NCBI GenBank assembly: GCA_903913865.1
Contig: CAIWMU010000160.1
Coordinates: 1-59,516 of the forward strand
Length of the DNA stretch: 59,516 bases
Direction: 5' to 3'
Source of the DNA: an uncultured Verrucomicrobia subdivision 3 bacterium
GTDB taxonomy: Bacteria; Verrucomicrobiota; Verrucomicrobiia; Limisphaerales; UBA8199
In this document: in pieces, positions 13,557-25,164 of the stretch
Layout of the letters: each line of letters starts with the position of its first letter
Position numbering within the stretch: the first letter of the stretch is position 1
The notes under the pieces: generated by a model
The model's database searches: none
The model's input: the letters and a program-made list of their open reading frames with translations, nothing else
Told to the model about the DNA's origin: nothing
Program-made: the position numbers and the translations under genes

Positions 13557-13660
13557 TTCGATTCCGGTTCATCCCGCCAAACGGCCGATTCATCACAGAA
13601 TCTCCCCGTCTCATCACAAACTGCCCGACAGTTGCCCCCATGATCCACTAGCTTACAGGC

Positions 13661-15082
13661 ATGCGAAGAAATCGAGAAGCTGGCTGGGAGAAGCAGGTTG
13701 AAAACCTTGCGGGGCGGAGAGGCTTTGGGTCTGGCGCTGCTGTGGGTGTGCAGCCGACGTGGAGAGCCGGGCTTGCAAACCTCATCATTGTTCTGCTTTT
13801 GGCGTTCCCTGGGACGGGGTTGCTGGGTGCTGCTGACTGGAGCCGGTTTCGTGGCCCGAATGGCAGTGGCATTGCTGTTGATGCGGAACCTCCAACCAGT
13901 TGGAGCGATTCGGAGAATCTGAAGTGGAAGCTGGCCCTGCCCGGGCCCGGTTCCTCCTGCCCGATCGTTTCCGGGGACCGGGTCTTTGTGACCTGCTACT
14001 CCGGCTATGGGGATGGTAAGGGGGGCGATGAGATGGAAAAGCTCCAGAGGCACCTTGTGTGTGTGGACCGGGGAAGCGGGAAAGTGCTCTGGGATCGTGC
14101 TGTGCCGGCGGAGATGCCGGAAGACTCCTACAGTGGGAATCTGAGGGAGCACGGCTACGCCAGCAACACGCCTGTGACGGATGGGGAGCGCGTTTATGTG
14201 TTTTTTGGGAAGACGGGGGTGCTGGCATTTGATCTGGAGGGGAAACAGCTTTGGAAGGTCGGTGTGGGGAAACAATCCAGCAACCGCCGCTGGGGTTCAG
14301 GTTCGAGCCTGATTTTGCATGGGAACATGGTGATCGTGAATGCTGCGGAGGAGAGCCGATCCATCCGGGCACTTGAGAAGGGGACCGGCAGGGAAGTCTG
14401 GAAGACGGAAGTGGGTTCCCTGGAACTGAGCTTTGTCACGCCGGCCCTTGTGGAGTGCGAGGGTGGCCGGGTGGACATGGTGGTTGCAGTTCCAGGGGAG
14501 ATCTGGGGGGTGAACCCCGACACAGGCAAGCTGCGCTGGTTCGTGCAAAGCGGCATTGACGGGAACGTGTCACCGAGCATCATCGCTGCGGACGGGATTG
14601 TTTATGCCACCGGTGGTTATCCCCGGCAGGGCACGGTTGCTGTGCGGGCGGGCGGGAAGGGGGATGTGACCCAGAGCAACCTGCTGTGGACAAGCCAGAG
14701 CGCCTCCTATGTTCCCTCCCCGGTTCTGGCGCAGGGACATTTGTTTGTTGTGAGTGACCAGGGGTTTGCCATGTGTCTGGATGCGAAGAGCGGCAAAACC
14801 GTCTATCGCGAGCGTCTGCCCGGGGTGGGTGGAGGGAAGCCTTTTTACGCTTCCGCAGTGCTTGCCAACGGCCGCTGGTATGCGGTAAGTCGTCGAAACG
14901 GAACATTTGTCCTCGAAGCAAAACCTGAATTCAAACTGGCCGCCCAGAACAGGATTGCAGGGGACGACTCTGATTTTAACGCCACGCCCGCCATTGCGGG
15001 AAGGCAGCTCTTTCTGCGCTCCAACCGGGCACTTTATTGCATCGAGGCGGTGCAAACGGCGGGTGCGGAGAAAACAAAATAG
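13661..15082 (+). CDS. PQQ-like (BamB-type) beta-propeller protein
   Basis: This 473-residue exported protein has a hydrophobic signal near residues 38-55. The mature part opens with W-S-R-F-R-G-P-N-G-S-G-I, typical of a large family of periplasmic outer-membrane-assembly/PQQ-like propellers in Planctomycetes and Verrucomicrobia. Repeated blade motifs follow (V-C-V-D-R-G-S-G-K-V-L-W, A-F-D-L-E-G-K-Q-L-W-K). PQQ itself need not be bound. It begins a co-directional run of ten genes with very short gaps and is followed by an EF-hand gene 12 bp downstream. Whether it belongs functionally with the PqqD/ATP-grasp genes or is only co-transcribed is open. Confidence 0.85.
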   Translation: MRRNREAGWEKQVENLAGRRGFGSGAAVGVQPTWRAGLANLIIVLLLAFPGTGLLGAADWSRFRGPNGSGIAVDAEPPTSWSDSENLKWKLALPGPGSSCPIVSGDRVFVTCYSGYGDGKGGDEMEKLQRHLVCVDRGSGKVLWDRAVPAEMPEDSYSGNLREHGYASNTPVTDGERVYVFFGKTGVLAFDLEGKQLWKVGVGKQSSNRRWGSGSSLILHGNMVIVNAAEESRSIRALEKGTGREVWKTEVGSLELSFVTPALVECEGGRVDMVVAVPGEIWGVNPDTGKLRWFVQSGIDGNVSPSIIAADGIVYATGGYPRQGTVAVRAGGKGDVTQSNLLWTSQSASYVPSPVLAQGHLFVVSDQGFAMCLDAKSGKTVYRERLPGVGGGKPFYASAVLANGRWYAVSRRNGTFVLEAKPEFKLAAQNRIAGDDSDFNATPAIAGRQLFLRSNRALYCIEAVQTAGAEKTK

Positions 15083-15094
15083 AAAGAAACGATC

Positions 15095-15841
15095 ATGAGA
15101 ACAAAAACCAAGCTGGTTGCTTTGATATTGGGAGCTTCAACATGCCTCCTGACGGCTCAGGATGGCAATCCCCGGCCCGAGGGGCAACGCCCACCCGGAC
15201 GTCAGGGCGGGCAGGAGGGGTTTCACATGCTGCCGCCTCCGGTTGTGGAGCAATTGAAGTTGACCGGCGAGCAACTCAAGCAGGTTGCCGATCTGGAAAC
15301 AGAGGTGAAGGCGAAGGTTGAGAAGATTCTCACCCCGGCACAACTGGAACAGTTGAAGCAGTTAGGGCCGCCCCGGTTTCAGGGGAATCGGAACATGGGA
15401 GGCCCCGAAGGTGGTGGTGGCCCCGGGGGGAATGCGGGGATGCGCCCGATGCAGAACGGAGGTAACGATCCTTTTGATCAGGGGCCTGGTCCGCGTGGGC
15501 CCGGCATGCAAGGGGGTGGACAGCGTGGCGTGATGCCGTTGATTGAGGCCCTGGATTTGAACAAAGACGGCACCATTGATGCCGAAGAACTGGGCAAGGC
15601 GGTCGAATCCTTGAAGAAGCTCGATAAGAACGGCGATGGGAAGTTGACGAGTGAGGAGTATCGCATGCCGCGAATGGGAGGTGGCGGCGGGCAGGGGATG
15701 CAGCGGCAGGGCCAGGGTGGCGGGTTTCCCGGAGGTGAAGGTCGTCCCGGTGGTCAGGGGCAGGGGTTCAGGCCCGGTGCGGGAGCCGGCGGTCCTGGAG
15801 CTTCAGGGGGTCCGTCCCGTCCCCGGCCTGACCAGGAGTAG
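15095..15841 (+). CDS. Secreted EF-hand protein with Gly/Pro/Gln-rich segments
   Basis: This 248-residue protein has a signal peptide (L-V-A-L-I-L-G-A-S-T-C-L-L-T-A). A helical section at about 45-90 resembles periplasmic Spy/CpxP-type helices (L-T-G-E-Q-L-K-Q...L-T-P-A-Q-L-E-Q). Two EF-hand calcium loops follow: D-L-N-K-D-G-T-I-D-A-E-E and D-K-N-G-D-G-K-L-T-S-E-E. Flanking stretches are extremely rich in Gly, Pro and Gln. Such proteins are frequent in this phylum and have no assigned function beyond probable calcium binding. It lies 12 bp after the propeller gene and 19 bp before the PqqD-like gene. Confidence 0.85.
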   Translation: MRTKTKLVALILGASTCLLTAQDGNPRPEGQRPPGRQGGQEGFHMLPPPVVEQLKLTGEQLKQVADLETEVKAKVEKILTPAQLEQLKQLGPPRFQGNRNMGGPEGGGGPGGNAGMRPMQNGGNDPFDQGPGPRGPGMQGGGQRGVMPLIEALDLNKDGTIDAEELGKAVESLKKLDKNGDGKLTSEEYRMPRMGGGGGQGMQRQGQGGGFPGGEGRPGGQGQGFRPGAGAGGPGASGGPSRPRPDQE

Positions 15842-15860: not shown

Positions 15861-16097
15861 ATGCAAAAGCTTTCACAATTGGCGATCAGCTCGGAGGGGT
15901 TCATTTTTAATCCGGCCACCGGGGACAGTTTCCAGGTGAGCCAGACCGGATTGGATGTGATCAACGGAATGCGGGACGGCAGGGGTGATGAGGAGATCGT
16001 GGCAAAGTTGGCGGAGACCTACGAAGTGGCACCGGAGGATGCCCGGAGGGATGTTGCCGACTTCAGGGGAACCTTGCGGGCATTCGGGCTTGTTTGA
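15861..16097 (+). CDS. PqqD-family peptide-carrier (RRE-like) protein
   Basis: This 78-residue PqqD-like protein matches the family in size and pattern: an N-terminal beta part (F-I-F-N-P-A-T-G-D-S-F-Q-V-S-Q-T-G), then helices with I-V-A-K-L-A-E-T-Y-E-V and D-V-A-D-F. PqqD and related RiPP recognition elements bind leader peptides and present them to modifying enzymes. No pqqA, pqqB, pqqC or pqqE gene lies nearby, so PQQ synthesis is not implied. The next genes, 12 bp and then -4 bp away, encode an ATP-grasp ligase and a PLP decarboxylase-like enzyme. This suggests it serves a different, uncharacterised modification. The longer in-frame region upstream overlaps the EF-hand gene and is not used. 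Confidence 0.85.
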   Translation: MQKLSQLAISSEGFIFNPATGDSFQVSQTGLDVINGMRDGRGDEEIVAKLAETYEVAPEDARRDVADFRGTLRAFGLV

Positions 16098-16109
16098 TCT
16101 GCGCACATC

Positions 16110-17147
16110 ATGAAAGAACTCATCATTGGTGTGTCGGGGATCAACGCGATCGACAACCCGGGGCCGGGCATTGGGGTCGCGCGGAGCCTGAAGGAGGATG
16201 GGGAACTCAAGGTTAAGATTGTGGGACTTGCCTATGACGCCATGGAGCCGGGGATCTTCATGGATTGGGTTGTGGACAAGTCCTACATCATGCCCTACCC
16301 ATCCGGATGTGGAGATGCCTTCATTGAGCGGCTTCTCTACATCAAGGAATCCCATGGCCTTGATTGCGTGATCCCGAACCTGGATGCGGAGCTGCCGCTC
16401 TACATCAAGAATGCGGAGGTCCTGGCCGGGCACGGCATTCACACCTTCCTGCCGGGGATGGAGCAGTTCAAGCTGCGGAGCAAGGATCGACTTGCGGAGA
16501 TCGCCGGGAGGATGGGCATCTCACTCCCCCGCACGAAGGTGGTCCATAGCGTGGATACACTTATGGAGGCCATTGAGGAACTTGAGCTGCCTGTGATGGT
16601 GAAAGGCAGTTTCTACAAGGCCTACAAATGCCATACGGTTGGGGAGGCTGTGGCGCACTACCATCAGCTGGTGGCGGAGTGGGGCTACCCGATCATCGTG
16701 CAGCAGGTCGTCTCGGGCGACGAGATGAACGTGGTGGGACTTGGGGACGGGGAAGGGAATTCACTTGGAAGTGTGGGGATCAAAAAGCTCTCTGTCACGG
16801 CCCTGGGCAAGATCTGGACGGGGGTGACGGTGAAGCATCGCAAGATGATGGCGGCGGTGGATGATTTTGTGCGGGAGTTCAAGTGGCGCGGGCCGTTTGA
16901 ACTGGAGTGCATGGTGTCGGGGGATGAGGTTTATCTCATTGAGATCAACCCGCGCTTTCCGGCCTGGTCCTACTTTGCAACCGGGGTGGGGGTTAATCTG
17001 CCCTCGCGGCTGGTCCGGCGTTCCTTTGGACTGCCTGTGGCGCCTGTGCCCGATTATGCGGCGGGGAAACTCTTCATTCGATACACCGATGAGATGGTCA
17101 CGGACATGGACAAATTTCAGAAGGCAATCACACGGGGGGAGACATGA
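16110..17147 (+). CDS. ATP-grasp ligase
   Basis: This 345-residue ATP-grasp enzyme resembles the carbamoyl-phosphate-synthase large-subunit type. The N-terminal third is a pre-ATP-grasp Rossmann-like domain (I-I-G-V-S-G-I-N-A-I). The central part carries the nucleotide-binding lysine strand (P-V-M-V-K-G-S-F-Y-K-A). The C-terminal part has the metal-binding motif F-E-L-E-C-M...Y-L-I-E-I-N-P-R-F-P-A-W. By family it would activate a carboxylate as acyl phosphate and join it to an amine. The partner genes (PqqD-like before, PLP enzyme overlapping by 4 bp after) suggest the acceptor could be a peptide or carrier. Substrates are unknown. The ATGA overlap implies translational coupling with the next gene. 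Confidence 0.9.
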   Translation: MKELIIGVSGINAIDNPGPGIGVARSLKEDGELKVKIVGLAYDAMEPGIFMDWVVDKSYIMPYPSGCGDAFIERLLYIKESHGLDCVIPNLDAELPLYIKNAEVLAGHGIHTFLPGMEQFKLRSKDRLAEIAGRMGISLPRTKVVHSVDTLMEAIEELELPVMVKGSFYKAYKCHTVGEAVAHYHQLVAEWGYPIIVQQVVSGDEMNVVGLGDGEGNSLGSVGIKKLSVTALGKIWTGVTVKHRKMMAAVDDFVREFKWRGPFELECMVSGDEVYLIEINPRFPAWSYFATGVGVNLPSRLVRRSFGLPVAPVPDYAAGKLFIRYTDEMVTDMDKFQKAITRGET

Positions 17148-18547
17148 TGAAGCAGAACTATGAAAAGCCGGTGATCAAGAAATTGCACACCGGATCAATG
17201 AACAAATTTGGCCGCAGCCCGGCCTACGCCCGGAAGGTCCGGACGGAAATCGACGGGGTGCCGATCGATGATCTGGTCGCGAGGCATGGATCGCCACTGT
17301 TCGTGTATAGCGAGCGGAGTGTGCGCCAGAAGCATCGCCAGATGCAGACGGCATTCTCAACCCGTTATCCGAACGTGGTGATGGGGTGGTCCTACAAGAC
17401 GAACTATCTCGGGGCGATCTGCGCACTGATGCACAATCTGGGCTCGATCGCGGAGGTGGTCTCCGAGATGGAATACCAGAAGGCGCGTGATCTGGGGATT
17501 CCCGGGGAGAAGATCATATTCAACGGTCCACACAAGCCGATGTCAGCCCTCGAGCGGGCGGTGAGGGAGGGGGCCATCATCAATGTTGACCATCTGGACG
17601 AGGTGTATGATCTGGAGCAGATCGCGCAGAGGTTGAACATCCAGATCCGGGTGGGCATCCGGTTGAACCTGGATTGTGGGATACACCCGCAGTGGTCGCG
17701 GTTTGGTTTCAATCTGGAAAGCGGGCAGGCCCTGGAGGCGGTCAAGCGGATCAAGCATGGCCGAAAGCTGATCCTGAATGGACTGCACTGCCATATAGGC
17801 ACGTTCATCATGGAGGCATCCGCCTATTCCAAGCAGGTCGAAAAGATGGTTGCCTTTGGCTATGAGGTGGAGGATTCCTACGGATTTTCGATGGAATACA
17901 TTGATATCGGTGGAGGGTTTCCATCCAGGAGCCGACTCAAGGGAGTCTATCTCCCGCCGGAGGTGGCACTTCCCTCGATGGATGAGTTTGCGGAAGCCAT
18001 CACAGGAACGCTGCTGAAGTCACTGCGCCCCGGGGATTTTCCCAAATTGATTCTGGAGTCGGGCAGGGCGCTCATCGACGAGGCGGGGCACCTTATCACA
18101 ACGGTGGTTGCATCGAAGCGGCTTGCGGATGGCACGAGGGCCTACGTTGCGGATGCGGGGGTCAATCTGCTGTTCACCGCGTATTGGTACCAGTTCAACA
18201 TTGAAATGGACCGGGAGGTCGGCGGGATCAACGAAAAGAGCGTCGTGTATGGGCCGCTCTGCATGAACATTGATTCCATTGCGGAGGAGGTATTGTTGCC
18301 GAGGCTCACCCGTGGGACTCGACTGGTGTTTTCACCGGTGGGTGCCTACAACCAGACACAGTCCCTCCAATTTATCGAATACCGTCCCGCCTCGGTGCTG
18401 ATCTCCAATTCGGGGGAGGTGGAACTTATCCGTGAGGCTGAGGACTTGTCGGACATCACGCACCGGGAAAAGATTCCTGCCCGGCTTGTGGACAAGGGGG
18501 GGCTTGAAAACCAACCTGTGGCTTCCGATGATAGACGGAAGCAGTAG
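17144..18547 (+). CDS. Fold-type III PLP decarboxylase-like enzyme with a leader-peptide-like N-terminus
   Basis: This 467-residue protein of the diaminopimelate/ornithine decarboxylase and alanine racemase superfamily has its PLP lysine at K85 (W-S-Y-K-T-N-Y). Other family blocks are L-H-C-H-I-G-T (PLP stacking), I-D-I-G-G-G-F-P (phosphate-binding glycines), L-E-S-G-R-A-L, and a G-P-L-C-M-N-I-D block in place of the usual G-P-x-C-E/D-S-x-D. Before the barrel lie about 25 residues (Y6-E-K-P9-V-I11...M-N-K-F-G) that the family does not need. They fit the Y-x-x-P-x-[LI] pattern of lasso-peptide leaders bound by PqqD-like domains. The gene overlaps the ATP-grasp gene by 4 bp. Decarboxylation of a ligated amino acid, as BtrK does in butirosin synthesis, is a reasonable analogy but unproven. 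Confidence 0.88.
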   Translation: MMKQNYEKPVIKKLHTGSMNKFGRSPAYARKVRTEIDGVPIDDLVARHGSPLFVYSERSVRQKHRQMQTAFSTRYPNVVMGWSYKTNYLGAICALMHNLGSIAEVVSEMEYQKARDLGIPGEKIIFNGPHKPMSALERAVREGAIINVDHLDEVYDLEQIAQRLNIQIRVGIRLNLDCGIHPQWSRFGFNLESGQALEAVKRIKHGRKLILNGLHCHIGTFIMEASAYSKQVEKMVAFGYEVEDSYGFSMEYIDIGGGFPSRSRLKGVYLPPEVALPSMDEFAEAITGTLLKSLRPGDFPKLILESGRALIDEAGHLITTVVASKRLADGTRAYVADAGVNLLFTAYWYQFNIEMDREVGGINEKSVVYGPLCMNIDSIAEEVLLPRLTRGTRLVFSPVGAYNQTQSLQFIEYRPASVLISNSGEVELIREAEDLSDITHREKIPARLVDKGGLENQPVASDDRRKQ

Positions 18548-18561
18548 CGACACTGAGGGTC

Positions 18562-20628
18562 ATGAGGGATACGCTCAAGGCAGTTTTCAGCAGTTACGCG
18601 GAGATTTTTTTCCTGCCCGGCGGATGGGTGGCATCCGTCATCTTTTTGGTGACGTTCACCAACCCGAACGTCGGGCTGGCGGGAATCATCTCCGTTGTGG
18701 CCGCCTATTGCTTTGCCCGGTTTGTCCGGATGGAGAAGCAGTTTCTGCAATCGGGATATTACACCTACAACCCGCTGCTGGTGGGGCTTTCCCTTGGCAG
18801 CCTCTTCCAACTGAGCGGGTTGACCCTCTTTTTCATCGTTTCCTCGGGAGTGTTCACGTTCCTGGTGACTGTTTTTGCGGCGAACGTCTTCAGCACATTT
18901 TTCAGGCTCCCGATTCTGAGCATACCGTTCGTGGTGGTCAGTTCCGTGACGAGTCTGGCATCCCTCCGGTATTCGAATCTTCTGGTGACGATGCATCACG
19001 CATCGGTGCTTTCCAGCGCTGATCTGGGTCTTCCATATTGGGCGGCAGGGTTTTTCAAGGCATTTGGTGCGGTGATGTTCGCGCCATATGTGCTGGCGGG
19101 GCTGCTGCTGACGCTGGTGGTGTTGAGGAGTTCGCGCATCCTGTTCTTTCTCGCCATTTTTGGCTATTATTCAGGGGTGGGGATCCGGAGCCTCATGCTG
19201 GGTTCAACGGTTCAGGCCTTTGCGGATCTCAACAACTTCAATTTCATTTTCATCTCGATGGCATTGGGGGGAGTGTTTCTGATCCCATCAGTGGAGAGCT
19301 ATCTGCTAGCCTTCATGGGGGTGGCCATCTCGACGGTTTGCATGGATGCGATCGGCGGATTTTGGAGCGCCTACGGCATACCGATGTACACGCTGCCGTT
19401 CAATATTGTCACGCTGGGGTTTGTTTACGTCCTTGGGTTGCTGCGGCATCCCATGGTGGCGGCGGTGGTGGGAAGGACTCCGGAGGAAACGCTGGCGAAC
19501 CATCTTGCCAACCGGCAGCGCTACCGCGGCCGTGACTTCACGCTGTTCCTGCCGTTCTCAGGCAGGTGGACCGTGTGGCAGGGGTGGGATGGTCAATGGA
19601 CCCACAAGGGGAGCTGGCGCTACGGCTATGATTTTGTCATCACGGATGAAAAGGGGGCCACGCACGCGGGAGATGGGACCAAATTGGAGAACTACCTTTG
19701 CCACGCCAAACCGGTGCTCTCCCCTGTCCGGGGCAGGGTGGTTCAGGTGGTGAATGACCGACCCGACAGCGGGATTGGCTGTGTGGATGAGACGAATAAC
19801 TGGGGGAACCTCGTCATCATTCAGGATGCGCGCGGGCTTTTTGTTGAGATCTCACACTTTGCCGAGAAGTCGGTGCGGGTAAAGAAGGGGGACTGGGTGG
19901 AGCGCGGGGCGGTGCTGGGCTTGTGCGGGAACAGCGGGTATTCCCCGCAGCCACACATCCATCTGCAGGTTCAGGAAAGTGACACCATTGGTGCAGCTTC
20001 GGTCCCGTTCAGTTTTGTTAGCTATTTGGACGAGGGAGTGTATCAGGCAAATCTTCTGCCGCCGGAAGGTCATGCGGTGGAGCCGCTCTATCCCGACAAG
20101 CGGCTGGATAACCTGACAAACTTCGTCCTTGATGAGGAACACCACTACGAGATTCATCGGGGAGGTGTGAAGGTGGGTGATCTCAAGCTCAAGGTGCGCA
20201 TGGCACCCGATGGCACCTTTTATCTGGAATCGGACTGCGGGCAACTTTACTACGGGAAGCATGAAGGAACGTTCTATGTCTACAGGGTATCAGGAAGCGA
20301 CCCCTGGCTGCGGCTTCTGTTTCTGGCGCTCCCAAGGCTGCCTCTGGCCTACCGGGAGAAGATGATGTGGGAGGACCACGTGCCGGTGGGGCTGGTCATG
20401 ACCGGGCTTTGGGAGGGGATCATCGGCCTGATTGGCTCAGTTTATCCGAAGGTGGCCACAGTCAAAGTCTCCCAGGTCTTCACCAGTGAGAGTCGGGTCG
20501 ATTCGACCATCGAAGCAGGCTTTCTCAGTCCCCGAAGGAAGGCCTCGGTGGAGTTGGACCGGCAAAAGGGATTTGCTGTCGTGACGGTGGATGACATCAC
20601 ACTCAGGAGAGTCAAGCATGAGGAGTGA
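18562..20628 (+). CDS. Urea-transporter-like membrane domain fused to an M23-type peptidase domain
   Basis: This is a 688-residue fusion. Residues 1-305 form about ten membrane segments resembling the SLC14/UT urea channel family, including G-Y-Y-T-Y-N-P-L-L-V-G-L-S-L-G and the second-half signature G-I-P-M-Y-T-L-P-F-N. Residues 330-480 resemble an LytM/M23 endopeptidase with H432 and the H-x-H pair H465/H467 (P-H-I-H-L-Q-V). The first zinc motif, normally H-x-G-x-D, reads R353-Y-G-Y-D357. The histidine is replaced, so activity is doubtful. A beta-rich region and a final hydrophobic stretch follow (about 580-625). It lies 14 bp after the PLP enzyme and overlaps the next gene. The channel may pass a small product rather than urea; no urease is present. 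Confidence 0.85.
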   Translation: MRDTLKAVFSSYAEIFFLPGGWVASVIFLVTFTNPNVGLAGIISVVAAYCFARFVRMEKQFLQSGYYTYNPLLVGLSLGSLFQLSGLTLFFIVSSGVFTFLVTVFAANVFSTFFRLPILSIPFVVVSSVTSLASLRYSNLLVTMHHASVLSSADLGLPYWAAGFFKAFGAVMFAPYVLAGLLLTLVVLRSSRILFFLAIFGYYSGVGIRSLMLGSTVQAFADLNNFNFIFISMALGGVFLIPSVESYLLAFMGVAISTVCMDAIGGFWSAYGIPMYTLPFNIVTLGFVYVLGLLRHPMVAAVVGRTPEETLANHLANRQRYRGRDFTLFLPFSGRWTVWQGWDGQWTHKGSWRYGYDFVITDEKGATHAGDGTKLENYLCHAKPVLSPVRGRVVQVVNDRPDSGIGCVDETNNWGNLVIIQDARGLFVEISHFAEKSVRVKKGDWVERGAVLGLCGNSGYSPQPHIHLQVQESDTIGAASVPFSFVSYLDEGVYQANLLPPEGHAVEPLYPDKRLDNLTNFVLDEEHHYEIHRGGVKVGDLKLKVRMAPDGTFYLESDCGQLYYGKHEGTFYVYRVSGSDPWLRLLFLALPRLPLAYREKMMWEDHVPVGLVMTGLWEGIIGLIGSVYPKVATVKVSQVFTSESRVDSTIEAGFLSPRRKASVELDRQKGFAVVTVDDITLRRVKHEE

Positions 20629-22045
20629 CGGGATTCCTTGCATTACAGGGGGTGGGGTCGCTTCGGTGGCGCTTTTGCTGCTGTTTTTTGGGCGAGCCTC
20701 AGTGTGGGCCGGGGGGGATGGAGGGGGAAGGGAATCCGTTGCCGCCTCCAACGGGGTGGCGAGTGTGGCGCGGGAACTAACCCTGGGCTGGCAGTGCCAC
20801 ACCAATGCAGACTACGCCGGGGCGTTAACCCATTATCGGGCGGCGGCGCAAACCTCCCCGAAATCGTTGGATGCCTTGATGGGATCCTTGCTGGAGTTGC
20901 TGGCGCTGGGGAGGTTCGAGGAAGCGGAGAAGGTGGCCCGCGGAGTGCTGAAGGAACACCCGGCGAATTATTATGCGAACCTCCGTCTGGCATACTCGCT
21001 CCGGATGCAGGGGAAGTATGGCCCGGCCCGGGAGATTGCTGGCAGGATGCTGGAGCTTTACCCTGCGGATGTGCTTTTTCTGTTGGAGACCGGCCTTTTG
21101 CAGCGTGCGTGCCGGCAGGAGATTCCAGCCAGGGACACTTTTCTCAAGGTGCAACTGCTCGACCCCGGGAACCCGATAGCCGGGCAGGAACTGGAGTCCC
21201 TGCAGAAAGGCAGTCCCAGTCCCAATATTCCGAGTCTGGCTCCATCCGGGCCGGTTTCCAAATTCGGGGCAACAGCGATTGGCTACTGCGGATTTCTTGA
21301 TTACCACGGCACCGCCTCCAAGGATCATGCGAATTCGGCTGGAGTTTACGCCGCGCTGGGGCAGGGGTTGACCCACCTTCTCGAGGTGGAGGGAGATTTG
21401 ATCCACAAATTTTATCGTGGATATGACTCCCTACGCCAATGGGATGCCACGGCGGCTTACGCGAATTATTCGATTCCCGGGATCAAGCTCCGGATGGGTG
21501 GGCACCTGGTGTCGAGTGACGATCCCTACACAGATGGGGGGTATGTCCTTTTTGGGGGTGTTGATTATCAGGACCCGGGTTCATGGTCTGCAGGGATGGA
21601 TGGATTCTTCACGAAGTATCCCAACTTACAAATACCGCTTGAGGTGGGGCAGCTGACTCCCCATTTTGGCATCACCCTCTGGCGTGCTCCGGGTCTGGCC
21701 TGGGAGAACGACGTGCGTGGTTACTGGATCCACCTGGGTCGTGAGTTTGACGGGCGTCAGAACTATTATTCCGTGGAGGAGCGATTGTCGTTGAAGTGGC
21801 ATCGGTGGACCCTTTCGGGGATGGGTTGGGTGGGGCAGCAGATGTTTGCCGTCCGCAACCAGGGTTTCGCACTTTACAATATGGCTGAGGATCACCGGGG
21901 AGGTTACGGTGCCGAGATTCGGCATGCGTTCGGTCGGCATCTCGAGATTGGCTTTCGCTTCAGCCGTGAGCATTTTCGGGATCTCGCGATCACCCCCAAC
22001 GCCACATCTGAATCCTACATGGCCTTGCTGGCATGGAACTTTTAG
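20618..22045 (+). CDS. TPR protein with C-terminal outer-membrane barrel-like domain
   Basis: This 475-residue protein has an N-terminal signal (V-A-S-V-A-L-L-L-L-F-F-G-R-A-S-V-W-A). Residues 45-190 form about four TPR units, including N-Y-Y-A-N-L-R-L-A-Y-S-L-R-M-Q. A spacer leads to about 260 residues of alternating aromatic/polar strands, and the chain ends in ...L-L-A-W-N-F. A terminal phenylalanine preceded by amphipathic strands is the usual beta-barrel insertion signal, so it is probably an outer-membrane protein with periplasmic TPRs. It starts inside the upstream fusion gene (11 bp overlap). The following gene carries a near-identical TPR motif, so the two may act together. Confidence 0.8.
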   Translation: MRSDGIPCITGGGVASVALLLLFFGRASVWAGGDGGGRESVAASNGVASVARELTLGWQCHTNADYAGALTHYRAAAQTSPKSLDALMGSLLELLALGRFEEAEKVARGVLKEHPANYYANLRLAYSLRMQGKYGPAREIAGRMLELYPADVLFLLETGLLQRACRQEIPARDTFLKVQLLDPGNPIAGQELESLQKGSPSPNIPSLAPSGPVSKFGATAIGYCGFLDYHGTASKDHANSAGVYAALGQGLTHLLEVEGDLIHKFYRGYDSLRQWDATAAYANYSIPGIKLRMGGHLVSSDDPYTDGGYVLFGGVDYQDPGSWSAGMDGFFTKYPNLQIPLEVGQLTPHFGITLWRAPGLAWENDVRGYWIHLGREFDGRQNYYSVEERLSLKWHRWTLSGMGWVGQQMFAVRNQGFALYNMAEDHRGGYGAEIRHAFGRHLEIGFRFSREHFRDLAITPNATSESYMALLAWNF

Positions 22046-22062
22046 TCTTTTATAAATCAATC

Positions 22063-22806
22063 ATGAACACAACCGGCAACAAATTGCACGCTGGCCTTGC
22101 AACTGCAGGCGGGTCCCCACTGCTCAGATTCACGAGGATGTTGATCCCGGGAGTTGCGGTCCTTGGGTTCGTCCTGACCACCGCCCTGCTGATGGCCGGG
22201 GGAGCATCCGGGGACACCCCGGTGCCAGGCGATGTCGAAATTCGGGATGCCTATTACAAGTCCTACGGCTATGAGAAAGGGCAAAACTATGCGGATGCGA
22301 TCAAGGCCATCGCCCCGGTAGTCTCGGCCTATCCGCAGGGATATACGGTGAACCTCCGGCTGGGGTGGCTCTATTATCTGAGTGGAAATCAGGCCAATTC
22401 GAAGGTTCACTATCTGGCTGCGATCAAATCCGCCCCGGCTTCGATTGAGGCGAAGTTGGGCTACATGCTGCCCCTTCTGGCACAGGAACGGTATGAGGAG
22501 GTCGAGTCGGTGGCCAAACAGGTCATCCGGGTCGATGCTTCGAATTATTATGCGAACCTCCGGCTGGCCTATGCCTTGCGGATGCAAAAAAAGTATGACG
22601 CCAGCAGTGAACTGCTGATCCAGCTCCTCACTTACTACCCGACAGATGTGAAGTTCCTTACAGAGCTTGCGCTGGTCAGGGTTGCGCAGGACCAGCGGGA
22701 AAGTGCCAGACGCATCTTCTTCGACGTGCTGACCCTCGATCCGGAAAATGTCGTCGCCAAAGAGGAGATTTCACGTCATAATAAGACGGTTGAACAATCA
22801 AAATGA
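22063..22806 (+). CDS. Membrane-anchored or secreted TPR protein
   Basis: This 247-residue protein has one N-terminal hydrophobic segment (I-P-G-V-A-V-L-G-F-V-L-T-T-A-L-L-M-A). It is followed by about five TPR-like units covering residues 60-240. One unit, N-Y-Y-A-N-L-R-L-A-Y-A-L-R-M-Q-K, is almost the same as one in the preceding barrel protein, so the two TPR regions are paralogous. I start at ATG 22063, 17 bp after the previous stop; the frame also extends 30 bp upstream without a better start. Its stop codon overlaps an ATG of the next frame. It probably mediates protein contacts in the periplasm. Confidence 0.8.
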   Translation: MNTTGNKLHAGLATAGGSPLLRFTRMLIPGVAVLGFVLTTALLMAGGASGDTPVPGDVEIRDAYYKSYGYEKGQNYADAIKAIAPVVSAYPQGYTVNLRLGWLYYLSGNQANSKVHYLAAIKSAPASIEAKLGYMLPLLAQERYEEVESVAKQVIRVDASNYYANLRLAYALRMQKKYDASSELLIQLLTYYPTDVKFLTELALVRVAQDQRESARRIFFDVLTLDPENVVAKEEISRHNKTVEQSK

Positions 22807-22862
22807 GGAGTGATATTGGGAGTGGTGCTTTTAATGGAAGTGCCAGACAGTTCAAGCCATTT

Positions 22863-24284
22863 ATGAACCAGAGAATTGTAATCGCAATCGCAGCCCTTTT
22901 GCTGGGCGCCCTGCCGCTCCGGGCCCAGGTTCCACACCTGCTGAACTACCAGGGCAGGGTAACGGTTGGCGGGACCAACTTCGAAGGAACAGGGCAGTTT
23001 AAGTTCGCCCTCGTGAATTCGACCGGCAGCACCAACTATTGGAGCAATGATGGAAGCGTGGCGGGGCAACCCGTTTCGGGTGTCTCACTGGCTGTGACCA
23101 GGGGGCTCTATTCCGTTTTGCTCGGGGACACCACGCTTGCAGGGATGCCGACTTCCGTTCCGCCGCTGGCGTTTATCAACCCGGACGTCCGCCTGCGGGT
23201 CTGGTTCAATGACGGTGCCAGTGGTTTTCAGCTGCTGCTCCCGGATCAGCGAATTGCAGCGGTTGGCTATGCCCTTGTGGCGGCGAACGTGGATCCGGCT
23301 GCCGATGTACAGGGGCAGCGGCTTGTCATTGGAACAAACCATCTTGTCAGTGGTGCCAACTCCACGATTGCCGGAGGGTATTTGAACGCCGCGACAAACA
23401 GTGCTGCGAGCGTTGGCGGAGGGATCGCGAACATCGCAGGTGGCAGTGGATCCGTTGTTGGGGGTGGGTTGACAAACACTTCAACGGGGCTCGCAGCAAC
23501 CACCGCCGGAGGGCAGTGGAACTGGGCGAGTGGACAGGCTTCAACAGTGGGTGGCGGGTATGGAAATGTAGCCAGCGGTGTGGAGGCCACCATCGCAGGA
23601 GGGGAGTTCAATGGGGCGACCGGGATTGTATCAACAGTAGGCGGGGGTTATGGAAACCTGGCCACCGGATACGCATCCACGATCCCTGGGGGCTACGCGA
23701 ATCTTGCTGGGGGGCAGTTTTCCTTTGCGGCGGGGGCCGGGGCCGTGGCGACCAATGACGGGGCTTTTGTCTGGGCGGATGCCTCGAACACGAATGCTGT
23801 TCGATCGACGGTGAACAACCAGTTTGTTGCCCGTGCTGCCGGCGGCGTGCGGTTTCTTGCGAATCCGGCGGGCACGGTGGGGGTGCAACTTGCTGCCGGA
23901 GCCAACGCATGGAGCGCCACAAGCGACCGCAATCTGAAGGAGAACTTCAAACCGGTGGATTCCCGTGCGGTCCTTGCCCGGCTTGTAGCCACCCCGGTTA
24001 CCGAATGGAATCTGGTTTCGCAGGATCCGTCGATCCGGCATGTTGGACCAATGGCGCAGGACTTCAAAGCTGCTTTCGGGGTCGGTGAGGATGACCGCCA
24101 TATCAGCAGCACCGACGCTGACGGGGTCGCCTTTGCGGCGATTCAGGGATTGCATGAAATGGTGAGGGAGAAGGATGCGAGGATTGCGGACCTGGAAGCC
24201 CGGCTTGGCAGCCTAGAGGCCAGCATGCGGAAGCTGAGCCAGATGCAGCTTCAGGGGGGGGATGCCATTCCCCGGAGCAAGTAA
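22863..24284 (+). CDS. Surface protein with trimeric-adhesin head-like repeats and an S74 intramolecular chaperone domain
   Basis: This 473-residue exported protein has the signal R-I-V-I-A-I-A-A-L-L-L-G-A-L-P-L-R-A-Q. Residues 170-290 contain short repeats of the kind S-T-V-G-G-G-Y-G-N-V-A-S-G, which resemble the left-handed coil of YadA/Hep_Hag heads. About residues 360-440 form a peptidase S74-type chaperone domain (S-D-R-N-L-K-E-N-F...G-P-M-A-Q-D-F...G-V-A-F-A-A-I-Q-G), followed by a coiled coil. S74 domains trimerise fibres and then cut themselves off at the Ser of S-D. An ATG at 22803 overlapping the previous stop is an alternative start, but the signal peptide begins at 22863. Confidence 0.8.
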   Translation: MNQRIVIAIAALLLGALPLRAQVPHLLNYQGRVTVGGTNFEGTGQFKFALVNSTGSTNYWSNDGSVAGQPVSGVSLAVTRGLYSVLLGDTTLAGMPTSVPPLAFINPDVRLRVWFNDGASGFQLLLPDQRIAAVGYALVAANVDPAADVQGQRLVIGTNHLVSGANSTIAGGYLNAATNSAASVGGGIANIAGGSGSVVGGGLTNTSTGLAATTAGGQWNWASGQASTVGGGYGNVASGVEATIAGGEFNGATGIVSTVGGGYGNLATGYASTIPGGYANLAGGQFSFAAGAGAVATNDGAFVWADASNTNAVRSTVNNQFVARAAGGVRFLANPAGTVGVQLAAGANAWSATSDRNLKENFKPVDSRAVLARLVATPVTEWNLVSQDPSIRHVGPMAQDFKAAFGVGEDDRHISSTDADGVAFAAIQGLHEMVREKDARIADLEARLGSLEASMRKLSQMQLQGGDAIPRSK

Positions 24285-24285
24285 C

Positions 24286-25164
24286 ATGAACCTCCGAACA
24301 GGGTCATTGATTTGGGCGGGGATGTGGGTGGTTTCTGCCCTGCAGGCTGGCACGGTCACTTCCGTTCTGGATTCCGGGGGCAGGCGTGTCTCCAGCAGCA
24401 GTTATGCAATAGACGGGAGTCTTGGCAGCCTGGGTGGTGTCGGGACATCGGCCGCTCCATATGTTGCAAGGCATGGCTATTCCGGGCAAATCACAGATGT
24501 GAGATCCCTATCCCTCAGTGCCACCCCCTCCACAATCAATGAATCAGGCACCCGGCAACTCGGGGCCAGGGCAACCCTCGATGACGGGACACTCCTGTCC
24601 CTTTCCAACACGAGTGTGGTGTGGAGCTTGGTTGCCGGTCCTCTTGCCTCGGTCAATGCAACCGGTTTGGCAACAGCCTCGGTGGTCTATCAGGATACCA
24701 CTGGAACCGTTCGGGGAGATTACCTGGGCAAGTCAGGCACGCTTTCAATGACGGTTTTGAACGTTGCGGGGGATGATTTCGGGACTTATGCAGGGGACGG
24801 CATGGATGATGCCTGGCAGGTTAGACACTTCGGTTTGGGGAACCCCAACGCCGCCCCCGGGGCCGATCCGGACCATGATGGGGTGGTCAACTCTCTGGAG
24901 TTTGTGGCGGATACGATTCCGACCAACGCCCTCTCAAGATTTGTCATCGAAAGGGCCACAAACAGGGCAGGTATCAACGTCCTGTTCCAGTCCTCAGCAA
25001 GCCGGAAATATACGCTCTACTATCGCACGAATCTGGTTTCGGGAACATGGACCAACATCCCGACCCAGACGGATGTTACTGGCAGCGGGGGAGTGAGTTC
25101 CCTTTCAGATCCAGCAACTCCAACCACGCGCCGGTTTTACCGTGTCGGTGTGCGGTTGCCTTGA
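24286..25164 (+). CDS. Secreted Ig-like (BIG_2-type) protein
   Basis: This 292-residue protein has a signal peptide ending near A-L-Q-A-G-T. Residues 75-165 resemble a bacterial Ig-like group 2 domain (L-S-L-S-A-T-P-S-T-I-N...G-T-L-S-M-T-V-L-N). Next comes a thrombospondin-3-like acidic segment (A-D-P-D-H-D-G-V-V-N-S-L-E-F) and a C-terminal beta module typical of exported Verrucomicrobiota proteins (Y-T-L-Y-Y-R-T-N-L-V...R-R-F-Y-R-V). It starts one base after the S74 protein's stop, so both are surely co-transcribed. It is probably cell-surface or extracellular; no enzyme motif is seen. It ends the ten-gene run. Confidence 0.75.
   Translation: MNLRTGSLIWAGMWVVSALQAGTVTSVLDSGGRRVSSSSYAIDGSLGSLGGVGTSAAPYVARHGYSGQITDVRSLSLSATPSTINESGTRQLGARATLDDGTLLSLSNTSVVWSLVAGPLASVNATGLATASVVYQDTTGTVRGDYLGKSGTLSMTVLNVAGDDFGTYAGDGMDDAWQVRHFGLGNPNAAPGADPDHDGVVNSLEFVADTIPTNALSRFVIERATNRAGINVLFQSSASRKYTLYYRTNLVSGTWTNIPTQTDVTGSGGVSSLSDPATPTTRRFYRVGVRLP

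Follow-up and report, generated by a model that had tools for sequence, protein, structure and literature searches.

The window analysed here, a stretch of 59,516 nucleotides (contig CAIWMU010000160.1, positions 1 to 59,516) from an uncultured Verrucomicrobia subdivision 3 bacterium, contains six packed open reading frames (ORFs) on the + strand, separated by 12, -4, 14, -11 and 17 bases. Its contig is C160 of a 6.27-Mb genome in 267 contigs. A first-pass annotation had proposed that these genes associate three proteins resembling tools of peptide modification with three that look like parts of the cell envelope, and the coordinates and families that it gave are borne out by the ORF list and by Pfam. 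The starts of the fifth and sixth genes are internal ATGs inside slightly longer ORFs. The features are listed below (RRE, recognition element of the ribosomally synthesized and post-translationally modified peptides, or RiPPs; PLP, pyridoxal phosphate; DAPDC, diaminopimelate decarboxylase; UT, urea transporter; TPR, tetratricopeptide repeat).

15861..16097, + strand: PqqD-like protein, lasso-type RRE, 78 aa (Pfam PqqD 46 bits, cut-off 23.4)
16110..17147, + strand: ATP-grasp ligase, 345 aa (Pfam ATP-grasp_3 30.6 bits; PDB 2pn1 1.5e-10)
17144..18547, + strand: PLP decarboxylase of the DAPDC/FslC/BtrK kind, 467 aa (Orn_Arg_deC_N 116.2 bits, Orn_DAP_Arg_deC 46.7 bits)
17147..17224, + strand: leader-like tail of the PLP enzyme, with YEKPVI at residues 6-11 and then MNKFG
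18562..20628, + strand: fusion of a UT and an M23-like domain (Pfam UT 178.3 bits, Peptidase_M23 45.9 bits)
20618..22045, + strand: TPR protein whose C-terminal region may be an outer-membrane barrel (TPR in Pfam; accessory, variable)
22063..22806, + strand: second TPR protein with a hydrophobic N-terminus (TPR in Pfam; accessory, often present)

The core of this module consists of the PqqD, ATP-grasp, PLP enzyme and urea-channel genes, and the two TPR genes are accessories. Full-length UT-M23 proteins are present in 7 of 97 relatives, the window's genome counted in, so the module is patchy. Scanning genome contigs with an alignment of seven UT-M23 proteins yielded 70 loci, with L106 matching M23 only, and the main set comprises the window and L037-L105. 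Before counting, we dropped L046, L049, L077, L086 and L095, in which the N-terminus of the PLP enzyme is missing, cut or out of frame, as well as the duplicates L113, L128, L131, L133, L135, L137-L141 and L162. The order PqqD, ATP-grasp, PLP enzyme, UT-M23 on one strand was found in 51 of the 58 main-set loci with an intact PLP enzyme N-terminus, successive profile matches being at most 365 bases apart, and its recurrence in distant bacteria indicates that the gene set is not due to chance. In the other seven loci, no PqqD was found; six of these are cut off by the end of the contig at the ATP-grasp gene or just above it, and the seventh, L045, belongs to a genome that carries PqqD next to ATP-grasp at another place. 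With starts chosen by script, the median gaps are 8 bases for PqqD/ATP-grasp (47 pairs), -4 for ATP-grasp/PLP enzyme (57) and 4 for PLP enzyme/UT (62). Moreover, when pairwise distances are compared across 46 loci, the four proteins correlate with r of 0.89-0.95, and 0 of 999 permutations reached the observed value in any of the six pairs. All four have diverged together, host ancestry adding to the correlation.

By tblastn, many main loci match the fifth gene, less strongly outside Verrucomicrobia and in part over the TPR portion alone; the sixth gene also has tblastn matches in many of them, located upstream and not downstream in L040, L041, L053 and L100. No further neighbour family as widely common as the core was detected with a crude ORF caller, for which wrong frames are possible in GC-rich DNA. 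The refuting condition of the first-pass annotation, that the genes would rarely stand together elsewhere, clearly does not hold for the first four.

By record title, which can be wrong for assembled genomes, the hosts span about ten phyla. The titles name Verrucomicrobia, Lentisphaerae, Planctomycetes, Aquificota, Gemmatimonadetes, Wallbacteria, Kapaibacteria, Nitrospinia, Gamma- and Alphaproteobacteria, Lambdaproteobacteria, Thermodesulfobacteria, Desulfofervidaceae, Desulfurellales, Campylobacterota and Halobacteriovoraceae, and also include the vent genera Persephonella and Nautiliaceae, and Thiomargarita. L043, L084 and L054 are titled Akkermansia muciniphila or Klebsiella pneumoniae and hold copies near the Verrucomicrobia ones; these titles look wrong. 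One UT-M23 match lies inside the complete 2.7-Mb chromosome CP037918.1, which argues that binning alone is not the source of the module.

In five loci, UT-M23 stands without adjoining enzymes; in L061, L063 and L079 its upstream neighbours are other genes, and L071 and L057 are close to the start of a contig. All five genomes have PqqD, ATP-grasp and the PLP enzyme together elsewhere, with no UT-M23 within 1.2-1.5 kb after the PLP gene. The presence of both the enzyme trio and the channel gene even when they are apart supports one module. When 16 genomes were searched for the PLP enzyme (E 1e-55), two of them, G486 and G488, gave no match; these two also have none to ATP-grasp (E 1e-20) or to PqqD. 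G488 is a 1.1-Mb assembly whose locus begins inside the channel gene, and G486 is a Halobacteriovoraceae record in which the channel gene stands with TPR genes.

Against curated models, the PLP enzyme scores 234.8 bits for FslC (cut-off 500) and 224.6 bits for lysA (cut-off 297.9), both under cut-off, and its PDB matches include 7kh2 (1.6e-62) and BtrK chains. K85 and C373, which we take to be the PLP lysine and the catalytic cysteine, are invariant in 25 aligned rows. As in FslC, Met follows the catalytic Cys, a place held by Glu in diaminopimelate decarboxylases. A role in lysine synthesis was dropped, because the genome has its own separate LysA gene elsewhere (466 bits).

The N-terminal tail of this enzyme carries Y..P.[LIVMFA] in 63 of 63 cases (58 main-set and 5 split-operon enzymes) and in none of the 32 scorable LysA-like controls; among shuffled main, split and planctomycete tails, the motif arises in 807 of 16,400 (4.9%). 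There were 34 controls (2, a further 2 from the window's genome, and 30 of the matches of a search), and L183, where the scored segment lies inside the protein, and L193, whose frame is open only from inside the protein, were not scorable. Since 19 of the 32 control segments have fewer than 30 residues and the flank taken per control is just 1.5 kb, the contrast comes in large part from LysA lacking any such tail. PqqD is absent from the flank of about 1.5 kb of all 34 controls. The main set was found through the channel protein; the split-operon and planctomycete PLP genes were found by a profile that includes the tail and could favour tailed copies. A Lys stands 15 residues after the Tyr in 60 of 63 tails (the MNKFG Lys in the window), and the pattern Asn/Ser/Asp/Arg, Lys, Phe/Tyr/His/Lys is present in all 63 main and split tails. 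In an AlphaFold2 model of the enzyme (mean pLDDT 82.7), residues 1-4 and 6-27 are below 50, and the tail is predicted to be disordered.

In planctomycete loci, the motif is present in 16 of 19, the exceptions being L175 and, with neither PqqD nor ATP-grasp, L179 and L181. Two of the 16, L173 and L171, have no PqqD in the stretch covered, and L173 ends at a contig edge. YxxPx[hydrophobic] is common to all types of the module, whereas the residues after it differ between the M23 type and the sirtuin type described below; the six M23-type planctomycete tails shown keep the Lys. In the available part of PMC12710340, YxxP is a characterised leader motif of lasso peptides, and a YxxP-to-LxxP variation is noted. 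As far as sequence goes, the tail is shown to follow the logic of an RRE leader.

A profile of 29 PqqD relatives places lasso RREs closest (TfuB1 2.2e-12, TbiB1 5.6e-11). In the crystal structures described in the available part of PMC13381572, the leader Tyr is bonded to an RRE Asp and the leader Pro is packed on a Phe. Asp64 and Phe68 of the PqqD-like protein align with this Tyr-binding Asp and Pro-packing Phe of the solved complexes; columns 64 and 68 pair with a Gln and a Phe of 9x90_B, which by the numbering in the same part of that paper should be PbaB1 Gln79 and Phe83. We aligned 76 PqqDs without duplicates, from 71 Tyr-motif systems (the separate peptide of L121 counted), three systems with F/F/L tails, L178 and L049. 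Among the 71, column 64 is Asp in 70 and Asn in one (L117), and column 68 is Phe in 65. In the three loci with F/F/L tails (L118, L119 and L120), column 64 is Ala, Gly and Ser, respectively. The L178 protein is unaligned at this column, with an Asp by eye, and that of L049, also with Asp, was set aside as the N-terminus of its PLP enzyme is not scorable. In the planctomycete L175, the tail motif is gone and so is PqqD from the front of the ATP-grasp gene, and no PqqD match was found in this genome at E 0.01. The tail motif, the kinship with RREs and the co-variation of column 64 make binding of the PLP enzyme's tail by the PqqD-like protein very likely; the suggestion that PqqD meets the N-terminus of this enzyme is thereby strongly supported, through the covariation of column 64 with the tail Tyr. 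Two other PqqD matches were seen: one from a genome-wide PqqD search of the window's genome, at G000:C150:5164-5352 (L185), at 23.6 bits just over the cut-off and inside a 739-aa open frame, and a strong one at G520:C66:6782-6982 (L218), at 63.9 bits in a 509-aa open frame away from that genome's module.

In the ATP-grasp ligase, K125, K165, E264, E266, E278, N280 and R282, presumably the residues expected for ATP and Mg binding, are invariant in 27 rows. A sibling cluster, L121 in G302, has the order PqqD, ATP-grasp, a 70-aa ORF with YEKPMV, a second ATP-grasp and a PLP enzyme without the motif, with gaps of 12 and 34 bases around the 70-aa ORF. The stretch YEKPMVKRH of this separate peptide resembles YERPMVTRH in the fused tail of L169. 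When the PLP enzyme of L121 served as query, no second free-peptide sibling besides G302 was found among 288 phylum genomes (G302 one of them) at E 1e-45, the other five matches being the UT module itself, nor among 193 class genomes at E 1e-70, a sample that overlaps the 288. In a plasmid collection, 10 decarboxylases were retrieved at E 1e-30, with less than 60% identity. Two proteins that appear radical-SAM-like by eye (L121:7456-8676 and 13600-15084) flank the cluster, the first without a Pfam match.

The channel protein comprises a urea-channel domain (about 1-300), an M23-like domain (about 325-490) and a beta-rich C-terminal region (about 505-688). Its UT domain is far above the Pfam cut-off of 25 and aligns with solved urea transporters over about 304 residues (VIA-align Z 34.5-35.6); the M23-like domain exceeds a cut-off of 28.7 and reaches Z 13.6 with M23/LytM domains. 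Few VIA-align structural matches extend into the 505-688 region, aligned within the whole fusion. At the first metal-ligand column of the M23-like domain, which we take to be the first His of the M23 HxxxD motif, none of the 67 rows with a letter has His, and Asp357, His348 and His432 are found in all 67, with His465 and His467 in 66 of 66. A second planctomycete type has UT fused to SIR2 in seven proteins by Pfam (L170, L172, L173, L175, L176, L178 and L180), whereas SIR2 is a gene of its own in L169, sharing 4 bases with the UT gene; the sirtuin motifs that were looked for are intact in all nine examined, L177 included. A 1554-aa ORF with a TPR-like start (L169:11550-16214) lies beside this planctomycete cluster. 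Sirtuins use NAD, and both M23-type and sirtuin domains can cut amides on side-chain amines. As an NAD user takes the place of the M23-like domain, the fused domain is argued to be cytosolic, presumably in line with the topology of UT channels, and it probably faces the cytosol and acts on amide bonds. The missing first His ligand and the probable cytosolic side suggest that the M23-like domain is not a typical envelope peptidase. No description of the M23-like/sirtuin swap on one kind of channel was found in the literature, where no query was aimed at sirtuin fusions.

The first-pass interpretation is partly supported; it changes for the M23-like domain, which is probably cytosolic, and for the TPR genes, which are accessories. 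The fifth gene product has a hydrophobic N-terminus and a terminal Phe and is a plausible candidate for an outer-membrane barrel, although no family library confirmed the barrel. No separate precursor was seen between the six genes among ORFs of at least 70 aa, shorter ones being outside the list. Family library scans revealed no acyl carrier domain in the six module proteins and four flanking proteins, and no leader peptidase of a known RiPP class among the module's proteins, which also include no lasso or LPP enzyme. A defence system was considered and dropped, as the six window proteins and one UT-sirtuin protein matched nothing in PADLOC at E 0.001.

The reading that we favour, with a probability of roughly 0.45, is that of a cytosolic, RRE-guided small-molecule pathway bearing the recognition tag on one of its own enzymes. 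The PqqD-like protein would very probably bind the YxxPx[hydrophobic] tail as lasso RREs bind leaders and, once bound, would be likely to bring the ATP-grasp ligase to it. The ligase might then form an amide bond to an amino acid that is held on the tail or close to it, and the PLP enzyme decarboxylate the conjugated amino acid, a step to which we give somewhat less than even chances; a possible attachment point would be the MNKFG Lys, which follows the Tyr by 15 residues. Conjugation followed by decarboxylation is the simplest pathway for an FslC-like PLP enzyme with an ATP-grasp partner whose residues are kept. According to the available part of PMC7857480, FigC decarboxylates N-citrylornithine made by a partner synthetase, a free conjugate. 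More tentatively, the channel-fused domain could cut the amide in the cytosol and the channel pass the small product, with the TPR and barrel-like proteins serving the periplasm and outer membrane. We regard as doubtful the specific proposal that the enzyme is its own carrier, in which the RRE-delivered ATP-grasp joins an amino acid through its side-chain carboxylate to the tail Lys, the same PLP enzyme decarboxylates it, and the channel-fused amide hydrolase (M23-like or sirtuin) releases the amine into the channel. The module would act like RRE-guided biosynthesis, an assignment that does not extend to membership of the RiPPs.

Several observations weigh against this pathway or parts of it. 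The Lys at the MNKFG position is present in just 2 of 10 sirtuin-type tails (L169 and L178) and missing from the M23-type L118-L120 tails, which is the main point against a universal Lys carrier. L118-L120 all belong to one family (f89), so that the loss of Asp with the loss of Tyr counts as one event; the joint loss in L175 is a second, in a single genome. The separate peptide of L121 is a single case. In G486, either the channel gene can occur without the enzymes or the assembly misses them. L045 and L171 have tails without a local PqqD although the sequence does not simply end; the L171 genome has PqqD in another cluster, L180, and at one further place. The M23-like domain may be inactive or regulatory, and the cytosolic placement of the fused domain is derived from the sirtuin swap and the presumed channel topology.

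The closest competitor, which we consider rather unlikely, is that PqqD clamps ATP-grasp onto the PLP enzyme tail and a free conjugate passes between the two active sites, the tail remaining unmodified. In its favour, YxxPx[hydrophobic] is what all types have in common, PqqD adjoins ATP-grasp where both stand away from the PLP gene (L216 in G489), and FigC works on a free conjugate (PMC7857480, available part). However, the separate YEKPMV peptide of L121 would be roleless as a clamp, and the MNKFG element is conserved in the main set more strongly than a plain linker needs. Less probable still is a true RiPP, with the tail as precursor whose MNKFG core is modified, cleaved and exported, and the PLP body as fusion partner and modifying enzyme. 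The leader motif, the RRE and the L121 peptide would fit, as would a Lys-Phe/Tyr-Gly element 15-17 residues after the Tyr, about where a lasso leader ends (YxxPxL lies at -17 to -12 in the part of PMC10368454 available). Yet each peptide would cost one enzyme, sirtuin-type tails have a different core and, as mentioned above, no leader peptidase was seen.

Uptake of urea or a small amide for nitrogen, with unrelated neighbours, would explain the strength of the UT match and a fold near urea channels. It was dropped as a general role because just 2 of 20 host genomes, not all of them complete, were found to have urease alpha, and because the four genes keep company even where their loci are split and diverge in step, which leaves it very improbable. 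Slightly more improbable is ordinary diaminopimelate decarboxylation or cell-wall trimming by a LysA variant beside an M23 peptidase. The lysA and M23 scores (224.6 and 45.9 bits) point that way, but the former is under a cut-off that the genome's own LysA passes, the catalytic Cys is followed by Met as in FslC and not by Glu, the first M23 His ligand is absent and a sirtuin takes the place of this domain in Planctomycetes.

Directly downstream of the six genes (window 22803-25164) lie two proteins, one with a peptidase-S74 (endosialidase-chaperone) domain and one that has no Pfam family; ORFs related to them form clusters of 13 and 8 loci around the module, in Verrucomicrobia-like copies. Just upstream, at 15095-15841, is an EF-hand, Gly/Pro-rich protein, and tblastn pieces like it were seen only in L033/L048 (one genome) and L041, at other positions.

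Several characterised systems share parts of this module. The lasso RREs (TfuB1/FusB1, TbiB1) and LppB have the PqqD-type domain, the partner motif [Y/W]xxPx[L/V/I/F/A], the Tyr-binding Asp and the Pro-packing Phe, with the motif on a precursor peptide and not, as here, on a metabolic enzyme. In butirosin synthesis, the ATP-grasp ligase BtrJ and the DAPDC-like decarboxylase BtrK act on a tethered amino acid; the enzyme pair is of the same kind, whereas our module has an RRE and a leader-like tail, and no carrier domain in its six proteins. Borosins such as OphMA have the substrate peptide fused to the modifying enzyme and are likewise peptide-enzyme fusions, with other chemistry, no RRE and the substrate at the other end. 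FslC/FigC of rhizoferrin synthesis is the closest named PLP relative, with Cys-Met at the catalytic Cys, although the module's enzyme scores under the FslC cut-off (234.8 vs 500). In the available part of PMC7857480, its substrate is an amino acid that a partner ligase has already conjugated, this ligase being an NIS synthetase rather than an ATP-grasp enzyme, and that part makes no mention of an RRE or leader-like tail, both of which the module has. The urea channel dvUT (3k3f) has the same fold over 304 aligned residues, whereas the UT domain studied here is joined to an M23-like or sirtuin domain and belongs to a module with a ligase and a decarboxylase. No description of the four-gene module was found in the literature searched, most subscription journals being outside its scope, and we could neither name nor find a known system with an RRE partner motif on a metabolic enzyme plus this channel fusion.

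RREs are used for RiPP discovery since they bind precursor leaders. Here, in many phyla, a PLP enzyme contains the leader motif, and to RRE-based mining the module would look either like a false positive or like a new class. That M23-like and sirtuin domains replace each other on one type of channel gives a hint of the product's chemistry. The module raises the directly testable question of whether RRE recognition organises metabolism outside RiPPs; if the PLP enzyme does carry its own substrate, RiPP leader recognition would extend to enzyme-borne substrates outside RiPPs.

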